Part shown: in pieces, positions 47,433-55,782 of the stretch
How the letters are laid out: every line of letters starts with the position of its first letter
Position numbering within the stretch: the first letter of the stretch is position 1
NCBI RefSeq assembly: GCF_000379025.1
Contig: NZ_KB900620.1
Coordinates: forward strand, 54,802 to 118,801
DNA length: 64,000 nt
Source: Orenia marismortui DSM 5156
GTDB taxonomy: Bacteria > Bacillota > Halanaerobiia > Halobacteroidales > Halobacteroidaceae
Direction: 5' to 3'
Notes under the pieces: generated by a model
Databases searched by the model: none
The model's input: only the letters and a program-made list of their open reading frames with translations
Told to the model about the DNA's origin: nothing
Program-made: the position numbers and the translations under genes

Positions 47433-47494
47433 TTATCTATCATTATAGTTAATAAAAAACTCATAAAATGACTTATTAGTTTCAAAGGAAGCTT

Positions 47495-47620
47495 TATGCC
47501 AAGTCGATTCGGTAGTACCACGATCAACATTGCGTAATTAATATAGAAGATCGTGGTTATGCCAAGTCGATTCGGTAGTACCACGATCAACATTGCGTAT
47601 AAAATAGTAGATAGTAGTTA
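47495..47620. repeat. 63-bp tandem duplication with internal ACCACGATC/GATCGTGGT pairing
   Basis: Two copies, starting at 47495 and 47558, share 42 identical bases from TATGCCAAGTCGATTCGGTA through GTACCACGATC to ATTGCGTA. The 21-base tail is degenerate in the second copy. Within a unit ACCACGATC can pair with GATCGTGGT of the tail. It is richer in G+C than its surroundings. Function unknown. Confidence 0.8.
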
Positions 47621-47865
47621 TCTTCCCCTAAAAATTAGTATCAAAGCATGACCTGGACCCTCTTAAAGGATAAACTAAAGATCAGGCCCTAGAATGAATC
47701 CAAGACCATAGTAACTCTATCATCTATCTAATATAGAAATTCTAGAATAATATAGATATACCTTTTATAGATGATTATAAAACTAAACAAATAACTAATT
47801 ACTATAATATAGTCAGATTTCTATCACCCTTCTTCATAACATTAACACTTCAAATAAAATCTTCC

Positions 47866-49545: not shown

Positions 49546-49732
49546 AGTCATGCCACCAACCTTTAGTTAATATTTTTAATATAACACTTTTTAATAATTA
49601 TAAATTATGTTATTTAATCTAGTTTTTACTATTAATTATTATACATCAATCCCACTGGTATTAAAAGAATAATTTGGAAATGATATTTATTAAGATATTA
49701 AATTTATTTCAACTAGAATCAAAGTATATCTT

Positions 49733-49861
49733 TTCTTCTACAATCAAGATTCCGGTATTCCACTTCGTTTCAACCGGAATGACTGTATAACCCGCATTCC
49801 ACTTCATTTCAACCGGAATGGCTGTATAAACGTCATTCCTGCGTAGGCAGGAATCTCGCTT
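49733..49861. repeat. Composite repeat, left copy, flanking the GIY-YIG gene
   Basis: Order: block A (TCTACAATCAAGATTCCGGT ... TCAACCGGAATGACTGTATA, about 57 bases), one extra ATTCCACTT-type unit, then block B (CGTCATTCCTGCGTAGGCAG, GAATCTCGCTTT). Block B is a hairpin of the type TTCCTGC-GCAGGAA. The same A ... B order recurs at 50291-50665. A short open frame here (minus strand) is only repeat DNA. Confidence 0.85.
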
Positions 49862-49952
49862 TTCTTCCACAAATAAAATTGGAACATTATACTTCTCTAG
49901 AAACAAAATTATAGTATCTCTTCCTCTAGATCATATTAGCTTAAAATTCTAA

Positions 49953-50237
49953 CTAAAAATAATCATACAGATCATTCCAATCAGGATTAAGTTCTTTTAT
50001 TAAATTCTCTTTATACTCTCTTTTCCACTTTTTCATTCTCTTCTCTGCTTGAATAGCTTCTTCCATAGTTTTAAATTCTTCTGCCCATACTAATTTGCTA
50101 CAGTTATACTTTTTTGTAAAACCATCTACTAATTTCTCTTTGTGTTCATATACTCGTCTTTTAATATTATTAGTGACGCCTATATATAACACAGTATTGT
50201 TTTTATTTGTCATCATATATGCATATGACCTTCTCAT
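49953..50237 (-). CDS. GIY-YIG superfamily nuclease (UPF0213-like)
   Basis: A 94-residue single GIY-YIG domain. YAYMMTNKNNTVLYIGVTNN is the GIY-YIG core with YAY and YIG, followed by the catalytic Arg in IKRRVYEHK, and the conserved Glu in KTMEEAIQAEKRMKKWKREY, then KENLIKELNPDW. These small nucleases cut branched or nicked DNA, and their biological roles are mostly unknown. The gene is isolated and lies exactly between two copies of the A-B composite repeat, which suggests a link between nuclease and repeats. Confidence 0.92.
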   Translation of the reverse strand: MRRSYAYMMTNKNNTVLYIGVTNNIKRRVYEHKEKLVDGFTKKYNCSKLVWAEEFKTMEEAIQAEKRMKKWKREYKENLIKELNPDWNDLYDYF

Positions 50238-50290
50238 TTTATCTTAACTCCCTCTATTATCATTTTTAGTTACACAAGTAAAAATATCTC

Positions 50291-50665
50291 TTTTATTCTA
50301 CAATCAAGATTCCGGTATTCCACTCCGTTTCAACCGGAATGACTGTATAGGGTATTCCGATTCAATCGAAATGATACTTTATAGAGTATTCCGATTCAAC
50401 CGAAATTATACTTTATAGGGTATTCTGATTCAACCGAAATGATACTTTATAGGGTATTCCGATTCAACCGAAATGATACTTTATAGGGTATTCCGATTCA
50501 ACCGAAATGATACTTTATAGGGTATTCCGATTCAACCGAAATGATACTTTATAGGGTATTCCGATTCAATCGAAATGATACTTTATAGGGTATTCCTCTC
50601 ATTCTAAATCACAGTATATTCCCTGCCTTCTTTCGTCATTCCTGCGTAGGCAGGAATCTCGCTTT
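50291..50665. repeat. Composite repeat, right copy, flanking the GIY-YIG gene
   Basis: Block A at 50291-50348 matches 49733-49789 with a few changes, and block B at 50634-50665 (CGTCATTCCTGCGTAGGCAG, GAATCTCGCTTT) matches 49832-49861. Between them is the 34-bp tandem array. So an A-array-B unit stands on each side of the nuclease gene in the same orientation. Confidence 0.85.
50350..50596. repeat. Tandem array, 34-bp period, seven full units
   Basis: Units begin with GGGTATTCCGATTCAACCGA at 50350, 50384, 50418, 50452, 50486, 50520 and 50554, with a partial eighth at 50588. They differ by only one to three bases (for example GAGTATT in unit 2, TTCTGATT in unit 3, AATCGAA in units 1 and 7). 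Each has a near-palindromic TTCCGATTCAACCGAA core. There are no spacers, so it is not CRISPR. Confidence 0.93.
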
Positions 50666-50671
50666 CCATAT

Positions 50672-50700
50672 AAAAACCCCGCATCAACTAAGATACGGGG
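50672..50700 (-). terminator. Terminator of the large repeat lipoprotein gene
   Basis: On the minus strand CCCCGTAT (50693-50700) pairs with ATGCGGGG (50677-50684) around an 8-base loop, followed by five T residues, 36 bases after the stop. Confidence 0.88.
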
Positions 50701-50735: not shown

Positions 50736-53700
50736 TTACTCCTCAGTTAAAGTATTTTGAACATGAACTGAGAATGTCTCAACTGCATCTTTAGCAATAG
50801 TAACTAAATTATTATCTGGATTAGAGATATAGTAAGCAGTTAAGTTACCATCTTCTTTAGTTACTGCATTTGCTAATGTAATCTTAAGGGTTCTTCCACT
50901 ATCAACAACTTCAATAGTGTTAATAGGTAATGCAGTACCATCATTTACAGTATATACCTTTAAGTCTAGACTATTAATATCATCACTATTTCCTTGATAT
51001 TCTATAGCTTGAGTCATTGGCACTGTAACAACAGCACTATCATTAGCAGTATCATTAACTAAAGTAGTCTCACTATCATAATCTATTGCTAGATCATTTT
51101 CTACTTCGTTAGCTACAGCAAAAGCAGCAACACTAGCATCAACCACTGCAAGATTTCCATATTGATCTTGTAAATGATCATTATTAGTGTAATCTAATGT
51201 TACACTTGCAGTCTCTTCAACTTTTCTATCAAGAGTTAATGTTAATTTATTAGCACTTATATTCACAGCAGTGATAGTAGTATTATTTCCATTAATTGCT
51301 ACTTTGAAGTCACTAATAAGATCTTCATCACTCACACCACTTACTCTTTGAACAGAAGTGTCATTTCCAGTTGCATCATCTATATTGGTTTTTTCTTCAA
51401 ATGTTACAACTACTTTATCAGAAGCATTATCTGCAACTACAGCACTAGCAACTTTTGCTCCTTCTACTTCATTTACAACCGCTTCATTACTAAGCTCAAC
51501 ATCATTTGCTACAAATTCAAATATACCGCTTACTTGAACTAAAGCATCTTCTTTAACCTTTTCATCTAATGTAATACTTACATTATTACCGCTAGCTCTT
51601 ACATTAGATATAGTAGCAGAGCTACCACCTACTGTTACATCAATACTATCAACAGTTGGAGTATTGATAACACTATCAGTAAATGTCAAGCTAATTATAT
51701 TTGAAGTATTATCTTCAACTATAGCACTTTCAAAAGAAGCAAAGTCTAAACTTTCGATTGGTACATTTTTATTAATCTTATTACTATCTAAATTATCATT
51801 TTCAAGATAATTGTGTCTACCATCAGTAATCTTACTATCAATATGATCTTGATCAGCACCAGCAACAAATTCATAACTTACTGTAACATTACCAGAGTCA
51901 ACAGTGATTGGCTTATTAAGAGTAAGAAGAATTTGCTCTTCTGGCTGACCAGTTTTCTTCAACTGAGTATTAGTAACCTTAATTTCTTGGCTACCAAAAT
52001 ATACTTTAAAGTTATCATCAGCAAAGTCATCTCCATAACTAGCATCAAAACCAAAGTCTGGATCATCTTGATCAATAGCGATCACTTTGTTTAAGTTTAA
52101 TAGAATTGTATGTGGATTAGTTGCTTTACCACCAGTAATGTATAATTCTTCAACATCATTTAGACCAATATTATCGCCATTAGCTAAGTCAATGGTAGAA
52201 GTAGCATCAGGATCAAATCCAATACCATCAAAATCAACTACAGTATCACCATCTACATCTTTAATAACATTTTCTATATAGTGTAAAGTAAATTCATCTT
52301 CTCCAGCAACATAATCATCTAAAGTTAAGATAACTTTCTCTCCACTTACTGTAGCATTTGTTACAGTTATTTCTTCAGGATCTTTACTATCTCTTACCCC
52401 ACCTGAATAATCAACATAGAATATGTTTTCCTGAGCATCATTAACAATTTTACTAACTTCTTTAATATCATCATTGAAGGTTAATTCAATTATATCTGGC
52501 TGATTTCTATCTCCTTCAATAACGATAGCATTAATTAATTCAGTTGGTACTTTTACTTGATTATCTACAGTTTCATCAATAAATGGCAGTACTCTATTAT
52601 ATAAATCATCAGCAGTAGAATCTACAATTAAATCAGTAGTTACTGGACTATCTGATCTAAACTGAGGATCATAAGTCACTGTAATGTCATTAATTTTTGC
52701 ATTTTCATCTACAGCTTCTTCTAATGTTAAAACAACCTGGTCTGCATCTGTACCTGCAGTAACATCAATAACATTTATTTCACCTTGACTACTATTTACT
52801 GTAAAAGCATTAGGATCAGCAGCAACAACATTATAAAGTTCTACATTAGCATTAAAATCCAATACAAGCTTATCAGCTGCTCCATCAAAGATTGTTGCAG
52901 TTTCCAATTCAGGAACTTCAATTCTATTAGGAACAGACTTACCTTTTGTAGAGAAGTCACCAGAACCTGCAGCAAATGATCTTGCTACATTATTATTTCC
53001 ATCTTCTAAAACATCTTGATCATTATAAACATTATTTCCAGGAATATAAGCTACCTCAATCTTTTCTCCCTCTAAAATCCTAGTATCAATAGTTAATTGA
53101 ATTCGAGTTCCACCAGTACTAACATCAATATCACTAGGAATATAAGCTTTATCATTAAGATAAACTGTAAATTGTTCTGCAACTTTATTTGCATCCCCAT
53201 CTATAGTTACATTAGAATCCAATTCTACTAGAACTGCATCTTGATCAGCAGTAACAGTATTATCTATTAGACTCATATCATTTCTATTATCAGTCACAGC
53301 TACTGGAATCATTTCATAATCTGGCGCATTTACAGCATTAGCTACACCCTGGTTTTCAAACCCAACTGTTTGATCCTCAGCAATATCTCTAATAAATTCA
53401 TATTCTTCAAGAGGAGTATATGATACTGTAATATCATCATCTTCAAGAATTTTTTGTACAAGTGTCAAAGTTATAGTATCCTGACCACTATAAGAAGTAT
53501 CTATATCATCTCTTGTTACAGCTTTAATTTCAACTTCTGTACCATTTACCATTACCGTAAAGTTATCAGATGCATCAATATCTTCATAATCTTCATCTAC
53601 TAAAGGATCTAAATCCATATCAAAGATAATTTCTAAGCTATATGGATTATTGTCTCTCACTATAGCATCAGCAAAATCTGGGGCATCAACATTGTTTGTT

Positions 53701-55595
53701 ACTGGATAATTAACATGAGCAAATAATGGATCATTATCAGCATCAGCATTAATATCTCCACTACCATCATAACTTATAGTAACTATTTGATCTTCTTTTA
53801 CATCTTCAGCTAATACTAAAGTAGCATATTCTTCACCATTACCTTCTGAATTATTATGCATACTCTTAATAGCTATTTCTGTGTCATTTACCTTTACAGT
53901 AAATCCACTCTTATCTGATAATCCAACTTCTTCACTGAAAGTTAGATTAATTTCATTGGCTACATCATCATCAATAACTGCATCTGTAATAGCAGGAACT
54001 ACATCAACCTTATAATCAGCAGTAGTAATTCCATCAGCAGCAGTTATAGTTACAGTAGCATCATCTACAATTGCTTCACTTGGAAGAATTGCATTATCTT
54101 CTGGAGCAAATACTGTATTAAATGCAACTCCAGCAGCATTAGTATTTACCACTACTGTTTTAGCTTCATTATCAATAGCTAACTCTCTAATATCATCTGA
54201 TATTAAATTAGTATTATCAGATGGCTCTGCAGTTTCTATATCATAAATTCTAACTGTTCCAATTGCTGATCTAACTACTAATTTGTATTCATTTCCAGGC
54301 ACTAAATCCTTTACATCATCTGCTTTATCAGCACTAAATTCATCATCGTAATCTTTTTCTACGAACATAACATCTTTATAATCGTTATCATAATCAAGTT
54401 TTGAAATATCAAATTTTCCATTATAAGAGATTGTTACAGTACCACTACTAATTACATTAGCAGTGTTATCTACAGTATAGTACTTGTTTCCATCAACATT
54501 AACTCTAGACTCTACTGTATTGTCTTTATACATTGGGTCTATCTCTATCTTATACTCAGTAGTTTTTCCATTTTCTGCTCTTACTACGATTAGATCTTCT
54601 TCACTAACTCGATAAGTAGAAGTATTATCTTCTTTGCCAGCAATTGAAATAATATCTGCCCCAGTATCCACTGTTCTTAAAGCTGAGTATAGCTTCTCTA
54701 CAGTTGGTAATACTATTTCTGGCAATTCATCTTCATCAAGTAAAACAAATACCTTATTAGCTGTATTATCTATATCTGTAACAACTGCTTCAATACCAGT
54801 TACACCATCATCTTCCATATCTTCTTGAATACTCTCTAAGTTAGTATTAATGCTTAATCCTAACTTAGCAGTTTCAATAGCTCCAAGCTTACTACCTTCT
54901 TCACCATCTTTATCATAATTAACAAAAGTGTTATCTTCAATTATAACCTTCAATTCATTTGCTACTCTTCCATTGATTCTAATAATTAATACCTTATCTT
55001 CCAAATAATCAGTATCATCATCACCATCATCTGTATTTGTCTCATCTAAAGAATCTAAGAAAGTAGCTGCTTCTTCATTAGCTAAAAGATTAACAGAAAA
55101 ATCTCCATCTAACCCCTCAACTGTAATAGCTTCTTTTAGATCTTTTCTAGCATCTGCTTCTCTAATATCTCTATCAAAAGAGATAATAAATAATGTCTCA
55201 TCTATATCTTCCTTATACTCTATTCCTTCAACATAAGTTGCACCAGTTACACCAGTCATTGTAAATTCTACATCTTCTTGATTTGATTTAACTTCATATG
55301 CTTCCGGCTCAAAAAAAGTAGCTGATTGTGCTTCTCCAGCAACTGGAGTAATCTCAACACCTTCTTTAACCCTTGTAAAACTCCATTTTCCTTCTGTATC
55401 AGTTTCAGCAACTTTATTACCTGCATTTAACTTAATGCCTTCAACTCCAGTTCCATCAGCTTTGATCACTTTACCAGACACATTATATGTAGGCGAACCA
55501 TCGTCATCACTACAACCTACTAATGCCAAAAGTCCTATCATCAATACTGATATAACTAATAATTTATTATTTTTCTGACTAAAAAACGAACCCAT
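50736..55595 (-). CDS. Giant acidic lipoprotein with nine SwmB-like Ig-fold repeats
   Basis: 1619 residues from the ATG at 55595 (MGSFFSQKNNKLL), which has GGGGAGGAA upstream and a signal peptide ending in the lipobox LALVGC. An in-frame GTG 34 codons earlier would bury the signal. After Cys comes a carboxypeptidase-regulatory-like fold (YNVSGKVIKADGTGVEGIKL), then Ig-like segments. From about residue 565 nine units of 95-150 residues follow. Each has the plan AIVxDxxxxxIxLTF, FTVxVNG, VxLTLxxxV, ITVSYT, as in SwmB-type adhesive repeats. The protein is very rich in Asp and Glu, fitting a salty habitat or calcium binding. Role inferred: surface adhesion or matrix. Confidence 0.85.
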   Translation of the reverse strand: MGSFFSQKNNKLLVISVLMIGLLALVGCSDDDGSPTYNVSGKVIKADGTGVEGIKLNAGNKVAETDTEGKWSFTRVKEGVEITPVAGEAQSATFFEPEAYEVKSNQEDVEFTMTGVTGATYVEGIEYKEDIDETLFIISFDRDIREADARKDLKEAITVEGLDGDFSVNLLANEEAATFLDSLDETNTDDGDDDTDYLEDKVLIIRINGRVANELKVIIEDNTFVNYDKDGEEGSKLGAIETAKLGLSINTNLESIQEDMEDDGVTGIEAVVTDIDNTANKVFVLLDEDELPEIVLPTVEKLYSALRTVDTGADIISIAGKEDNTSTYRVSEEDLIVVRAENGKTTEYKIEIDPMYKDNTVESRVNVDGNKYYTVDNTANVISSGTVTISYNGKFDISKLDYDNDYKDVMFVEKDYDDEFSADKADDVKDLVPGNEYKLVVRSAIGTVRIYDIETAEPSDNTNLISDDIRELAIDNEAKTVVVNTNAAGVAFNTVFAPEDNAILPSEAIVDDATVTITAADGITTADYKVDVVPAITDAVIDDDVANEINLTFSEEVGLSDKSGFTVKVNDTEIAIKSMHNNSEGNGEEYATLVLAEDVKEDQIVTISYDGSGDINADADNDPLFAHVNYPVTNNVDAPDFADAIVRDNNPYSLEIIFDMDLDPLVDEDYEDIDASDNFTVMVNGTEVEIKAVTRDDIDTSYSGQDTITLTLVQKILEDDDITVSYTPLEEYEFIRDIAEDQTVGFENQGVANAVNAPDYEMIPVAVTDNRNDMSLIDNTVTADQDAVLVELDSNVTIDGDANKVAEQFTVYLNDKAYIPSDIDVSTGGTRIQLTIDTRILEGEKIEVAYIPGNNVYNDQDVLEDGNNNVARSFAAGSGDFSTKGKSVPNRIEVPELETATIFDGAADKLVLDFNANVELYNVVAADPNAFTVNSSQGEINVIDVTAGTDADQVVLTLEEAVDENAKINDITVTYDPQFRSDSPVTTDLIVDSTADDLYNRVLPFIDETVDNQVKVPTELINAIVIEGDRNQPDIIELTFNDDIKEVSKIVNDAQENIFYVDYSGGVRDSKDPEEITVTNATVSGEKVILTLDDYVAGEDEFTLHYIENVIKDVDGDTVVDFDGIGFDPDATSTIDLANGDNIGLNDVEELYITGGKATNPHTILLNLNKVIAIDQDDPDFGFDASYGDDFADDNFKVYFGSQEIKVTNTQLKKTGQPEEQILLTLNKPITVDSGNVTVSYEFVAGADQDHIDSKITDGRHNYLENDNLDSNKINKNVPIESLDFASFESAIVEDNTSNIISLTFTDSVINTPTVDSIDVTVGGSSATISNVRASGNNVSITLDEKVKEDALVQVSGIFEFVANDVELSNEAVVNEVEGAKVASAVVADNASDKVVVTFEEKTNIDDATGNDTSVQRVSGVSDEDLISDFKVAINGNNTTITAVNISANKLTLTLDRKVEETASVTLDYTNNDHLQDQYGNLAVVDASVAAFAVANEVENDLAIDYDSETTLVNDTANDSAVVTVPMTQAIEYQGNSDDINSLDLKVYTVNDGTALPINTIEVVDSGRTLKITLANAVTKEDGNLTAYYISNPDNNLVTIAKDAVETFSVHVQNTLTEE

Positions 55596-55782
55596 AATTG
55601 AAATTCCTCCCCATATTTTATCACTTATTAAGTTATCACAATTAGTTTCACATAAAATTAAACTAATTCTTATATAATACCGCCTTCTAAAATTCACCTC
55701 CTTTCCAGCAGTTTACTTGATAAATTTTATTTAAATCCTATTATTTTTGTTTTTATGAAATTAATGGATATCACATCTAAAC

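Follow-up and report, generated by a model that had tools for sequence, protein, structure and literature searches.

The small gene and flanking repeats described here, from Orenia marismortui DSM 5156, probably constitute a self-contained mobile cassette, in which an Ssn-type GIY-YIG nuclease is combined with the CGTC-tagged REPs that it would recognise. They lie in a stretch of 64,000 nucleotides, called the window below. Across the family to which this gene belongs, gene and repeats go together, nuclease lineage and repeat match each other, and the unit moves between sites and species. Ssn stands for site-specific single-stranded nuclease, its repeats are known as NTS, and there are thousands of homologs with repeat specificities of their own. 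The pairing of an Ssn nuclease with a repeat has already been published; what is added here is the evidence for mobile cassettes, in the form of occupied sites, empty sites and deletion derivatives.

Architecture of the locus

The initial annotation had placed a GIY-YIG gene between two composite A–B blocks in direct orientation, and the repeat coordinates agree with it, both pairs being direct. The locus comprises the following features:

49721–49789, minus strand: block A, left copy, with a long-loop hairpin inside (49749–49780) and an AGTC tag on the gene strand (direct repeat, DNA fold)
49791–49829, minus strand: degenerate second tandem copy of the block A core, 39-bp period (repeat searches)
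49831–49859, plus strand: left block B, REP hairpin part, CGTC-ATTCCTGC-GTAG-GCAGGAAT-CTC (canonical CGTC-1 type, 8-bp stem, 4-nt loop)
49953–50237, minus strand: GIY-YIG nuclease gene, 94 aa (Pfam PF01541 match)
50281–50349, minus strand: block A, right copy, hairpin at 50309–50340, directed at the gene start (direct repeat)
50342–50596, minus strand: 34-bp tandem array, a block A derivative (8.1 copies, 94% match, the repeat search giving 50324–50596)
50634–50662, plus strand: right block B, REP hairpin identical to the left one (direct repeat)

The two copies of block A are 69-bp direct repeats with 94% identity, longer than the approximately 57 bp first given for them, and the two copies of block B (49831–49873 and 50634–50676) are direct repeats identical over 32 bp. 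According to the DNA folds, block A forms a hairpin of ATTCCGGT and ACCGGAAT, with an 8-bp stem and a 16-nt loop, and block B a perfect 8-bp stem with a 4-nt loop. Within each composite block A and B run in opposite directions (GATTCC..GGAATGAC, then GTCATTCC..GGAATC), so that the repeats nearest to the gene, A upstream and B downstream on the gene strand, both face it. Since the nuclease gene lies on the minus strand, the 34-bp array is located upstream of its start. The expansion of the right-hand copy into this array, already recognised at the outset, was recovered by the repeat searches; aligned to block A, the array unit shows a 5-nt deletion plus drift and is a degenerate copy of A, and every unit retains a degenerate ATTTCG..CGGAAT hairpin on the gene strand. 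On the left side there is also a smaller 39-bp tandem (2.1 copies) between A and B, missing from the first description.

Exact matches to the B hairpin in the 3.46-Mb genome were limited to these two sites, and no match to block A or the array elsewhere in the genome was better than E=0.3. Because hairpin, block A and array are thus confined to a single locus of the whole genome, the A–B arrangement is not due to chance. Two other repetitive features were seen in the same region. One is a 63-bp unit present twice (91% match) between two genes at 47494–47621, unrelated to the cassette; the other, next to the cassette (50736–55697), is a gene for a 1653-aa secreted lipoprotein-like protein with many internal repeats, for which searches of the genus and family returned only partial, scattered matches.

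The nuclease

The 94-aa protein matches PF01541 with E=4e-18 and has a weak additional Pfam match to T5orf172, a related domain. All the GIY-YIG active-site residues are present (Y7, Y18-I-G20, R28, H32, E65 and N84), with Y7, Y18, G20, R28, H32, E65 and N84 invariant or nearly so across the family, and a ribosome-binding site (GAGGGAG) is found about 11 nt ahead of the ATG. Its nearest homolog, from an Ignavibacteriae genome (L046), is 72% identical. Codon mismatches between the two genes number 50 at the third position and 19 and 11 at the first two, with a dN of 0.17, which indicates that the nuclease gene is under purifying selection.

The predicted structure (pLDDT 95.9) has UPF0213, Slx1 and UvrC as its nearest folds. 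The initial annotation had the protein cutting branched DNA, a claim that found no support here; we rejected the reading as a branched-DNA resolvase, since the likeness to Slx1 and UvrC is common to all GIY-YIG domains and is no evidence for such an activity. The nearest characterised relatives cut single-stranded DNA at a repeat sequence.

Nuclease and repeat pairing across the family

In 73 family loci with full flanks, we searched for a common sequence of at least 14 nt between the 300 nt before and the 300 nt after the gene. Flanks shared such a sequence in 51 of the 73 loci, compared with 8 of 237 random sites in the same loci. As a control we used the genes of UPF0213/YhbQ GIY-YIG proteins, which have the same fold and size but are only about 25–38% identical and occur in most relatives; flank sharing was found in none of 28. 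The tag GTCAT is approximately 11 times commoner in family flanks than beside the control genes, and its nearest copy faces the gene upstream in 45 of 72 loci (45:27) and downstream in 52 of 67 (52:15). Among the tagged perfect hairpins of the family, 72/76 carry TGTC or CGTC and 58/76 have a loop of 4–5 nt, with tails that are mostly CTC, CCA or CTT. Gene and repeats, whose association was first suspected from a single locus, co-occur across phyla, while the UPF0213 paralogs lack repeats.

Could the hairpins be ordinary transcription terminators, or ends that stabilise mRNA, as might be found around any small gene? Their intergenic position and 8-bp stem would be compatible with this, but they are not followed by a T-run, they have a terminal GTC tag and a loop class in common, and they are absent both elsewhere in the genome and around the control genes. 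We rejected the terminator reading on the missing T-runs and the hairpin-free control genes, and consider it hardly credible.

The repeat type tracks the nuclease tree. Mapping the repeat core type on the protein tree takes 23 changes, against 38.6 ± 1.8 in 500 shuffles (minimum 32), and for the four main repeat types 9 changes suffice, against 24 in the shuffles. The window gene groups, with weak support, with L046, L048, L050 and L056; the members of this clade come from different phyla and have repeats of the ATTCCGG and ATTCCTG types. The alignment has few columns, so that many forks of the tree are unresolved and single placements are not firm.

Family genes were also present in a plasmid collection that includes some chromosome-sized records, namely in N. 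gonorrhoeae, A. lipoferum, S. meliloti and Shinella, and all of them are flanked by CGTC-type repeats. The Neisseria gonorrhoeae record (NZ_CP119140.1, L243; 2.17 Mb) is filed as a plasmid but, judging by its size, looks like the chromosome. Another member, on a Planktothrix plasmid (L246:1501-1785), has GTCATTCTGAG repeats, with the DISARM gene drmA on one side and a gene for a type IIL restriction enzyme on the other.

Distribution and origin of the cassette

No close homolog of the nuclease was found in 60 relatives, which carry distant paralogs, mostly of 26–38% identity; one of these genomes (G057) has a 42% paralog with GTCATCCTGAG flanks of its own. The repeats, whose census in relatives had been suggested as a check, are equally scarce there, the tagged hairpin pattern being absent from the 60 relatives bar one copy in one of them, with none in either congener. 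The genome-wide collection, by comparison, held 80 loci at 51–72% identity, from Bacteroidota, Ignavibacteriota, KSB1, Proteobacteria, Patescibacteria, Spirochaetota, Cyanobacteria and others. Distant paralogs only among the relatives, together with closer homologs across phyla, point to the arrival of the window cassette by horizontal transfer. We rejected carriage by phages, as a search of 50,697 phage records gave no match to the nuclease. A further GIY-YIG gene of the window genome (L008, G000:C1:1258601-1258870) is only distantly related, at 37% identity; it has no flanking repeats, and there is a TGA within the matched stretch.

No empty site was found for the window locus when its flanking genes were searched in the genus, because these genes lack synteny there: the left one has just 43–44% homologs in two congeners and the right one scattered partial matches. 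Dispersed repeats are frequent in other genomes with family members, reaching 44 hairpins in a Kordia genome, and the single-locus state is also found in Aquimarina G084, where 6/6 counted hairpins lie beside the gene. The window cassette is best read as newly arrived or stalled, with no repeats seeded elsewhere in the genome, and block A as having undergone there only a local expansion into the tandem array.

Mobility of the cassettes

In the genus Aquimarina the family is present in 35 of 69 genomes, at 1–4 copies each. Eighteen close copies (76–86% to the query, query included) occupy about nine gene neighbourhoods, and DNA similarity between these sites mostly ends at the flanking hairpins, about 67–81 nt upstream of the gene and at most 48 nt downstream of it. 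Empty sites, which had been proposed as something to look for, exist in this genus at trpB-trpA and in Azospirillum at sufB-sufC (see below). Between trpB and trpA, G161 carries a cassette (spacer of 554 bp) and G167 carries none (86 bp), the TrpB proteins of the two being 99% identical; many other Aquimarina trpB-trpA spacers are empty as well. The cassettes of G161 and G120 have on their left a decayed duplicate of the beginning of trpA, of the kind expected from a target duplication, although this was seen at one site only. The same spacer has also preserved deletion derivatives, with both hairpins present and the gene between them deleted in G172, and solo hairpins in G138 and G111. Part of the presence and absence of cassettes could reflect loss instead of gain.

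In two further Aquimarina genomes (L198 and L206) the trpB-trpA spacer is occupied by another nuclease subfamily, which has hairpins of a ATTTCCGC type of its own; one site thus serves two subfamilies with distinct repeats. In Aquimarina algiphila (L173, G094:C21) there are two tandem nuclease genes 585 bp apart, with repeats between them.

A link between repeat number and gene presence had been proposed for testing, and in the 69 Aquimarina genomes hairpin number correlates with the presence of the gene subfamily: the 16 genomes with the cognate subfamily have a mean of 8.4 hairpins and the 53 without it 1.4 (p=6e-8), an excess that holds at p=1e-5 after subtracting two hairpins per gene, kinship of the genomes being ignored in this comparison. 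Hairpins are nevertheless retained in 21 of the 53 genomes without a cognate gene, so that repeats can persist alone or be moved otherwise. One could then imagine that another enzyme (e.g., an IS200/IS605-type transposase acting in trans) or replication slippage moves the repeats and that the nuclease gene is carried along, a view helped by these gene-less genomes. Bacterial GIY-YIG proteins, moreover, are not known to carry out transposition chemistry. We regard this explanation as quite improbable, given that repeat sequence tracks nuclease phylogeny across phyla, that the UPF0213 GIY-YIG genes tested lack such repeats, and that CGTC REPs have not been found beside tyrosine transposases (PMC3733652).

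In Azospirillum lipoferum a cassette splits sufB from sufC, while A. ramasamyi, A. oryzae and strain B510 have sufB-sufC without it and with flanks about 96% identical; no clean target duplication was found at this insertion. Shinella PSBB067 carries a different member with a different repeat, also between sufB and sufC. The independent presence of two different members (L244 in Azospirillum and L251 in Shinella) in this spacer suggests a preference for operon spacers.

Relation to known repeat systems

The CGTC-tagged REPs are defined by a C/TGTC tag, an AT-led stem of 8–9 bp, a loop of 4–5 nt and a short tail, and apparently come without a dedicated transposase, no mobilising gene having been found (Di Nocera et al. 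2013; PMC3733652). Block B has exactly this tag, stem, loop and tail, and most repeats of the family agree with the definition, with CCA or CTC as the tail; block A, with its 16-nt loop, falls outside the four described families. Azospirillum lipoferum, S. meliloti and Neisseria are among the species named for these REPs (PMC3733652), and all three carry family genes flanked by such repeats.

A likeness to RAYT/REP systems and REPINs, whose REPs are associated with tyrosine transposases (PMC2817692, PMC3116915), had been put forward for the locus from the beginning. As there, a single gene lies between its own tagged intergenic palindromes, and in Aquimarina (not in the window genome, where the repeats are not dispersed) there are dispersed single or inverted-pair repeats and deletion derivatives. 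The enzyme, however, has a GIY-YIG fold and is not an HUH tyrosine transposase, and the tag is CGTC, TGTC or AGTC instead of GTAG; with enzyme and tag both different, the likeness holds as logic and not as membership. The notion of a mobile nuclease-repeat unit has stood as regards gene and repeat pairing, the scarcity of the repeats in relatives, the link of hairpin number to the gene in Aquimarina and empty sites, while the nuclease as its mover is something we infer.

A close counterpart is the Neisseria Ssn system. Like Ssn, the window protein is a small stand-alone GIY-YIG protein, 47% identical over 86 aa to the N. gonorrhoeae homolog, which lies amid dRS3/CGTC-1 repeats much as the window gene lies beside blocks A and B, and which we take to be the published Ssn. 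The homolog in N. meningitidis is the Ssn nuclease of the published work, reported to cleave single-stranded DNA at this repeat and to influence transformation. The window differs in having composite A–B repeats and a 34-bp array, in that cleavage by its protein is only predicted, and in that its 3.46-Mb genome holds two flanking copies and no dispersed set comparable to dRS3 in Neisseria, although we know of no such set being required for membership of Ssn.

This kinship raises the alternative that a resident Ssn-type nuclease cuts repeat-bearing single-stranded DNA during transformation and so shapes uptake, the repeats being barcodes and the cassette spreading passively by homologous recombination or transformation rather than by transposition of its own. 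The position of the gonococcal homolog among dRS3 repeats fits such a role, the Ssn/NTS interaction is said, in work of Chenal et al. from 2025, to modulate transformation in N. meningitidis, and cassette-only genomes do exist (the window genome and Aquimarina G084). But insertion sites vary within one genus, homology ends at the hairpins and empty sites exist, which together require more than homologous replacement, and repeats multiply with the presence of the gene. We therefore judge passive spread unlikely, though less so than movement by another enzyme.

Proposed mechanism and significance

We prefer the reading of the locus as a mobile cassette, in which the nuclease would recognise and nick its own repeats and this cutting would drive their spread. 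Most likely, the nuclease would bind and cut its repeat when this becomes single-stranded, either in transforming DNA entering the cell or at a replication fork. By way of the resulting nick or free end, the whole repeat-gene-repeat unit, or a single repeat, may then be copied or recombined into intergenic sites.

A broader proposal, which we put forward more tentatively as a real possibility, is that this GIY-YIG family represents the missing mobilising enzymes of the CGTC REPs. The cassette would then be a self-moving element that relies on nicks in single-stranded hairpins rather than on the chemistry of a transposase and that has come to occupy many phyla, with the window as its minimal single-locus state. 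CGTC-type REPs, Neisseria dRS3 included, span many bacterial phyla, and the cassettes are a candidate for the driver that has long been missing for this large repeat class. With nuclease lineage matched to repeat, cassettes that move and gene presence linked to repeat number, the transposase question becomes testable in harmless marine bacteria such as Aquimarina. If the proposal is true, REP-like elements would have evolved twice, with unrelated enzymes.
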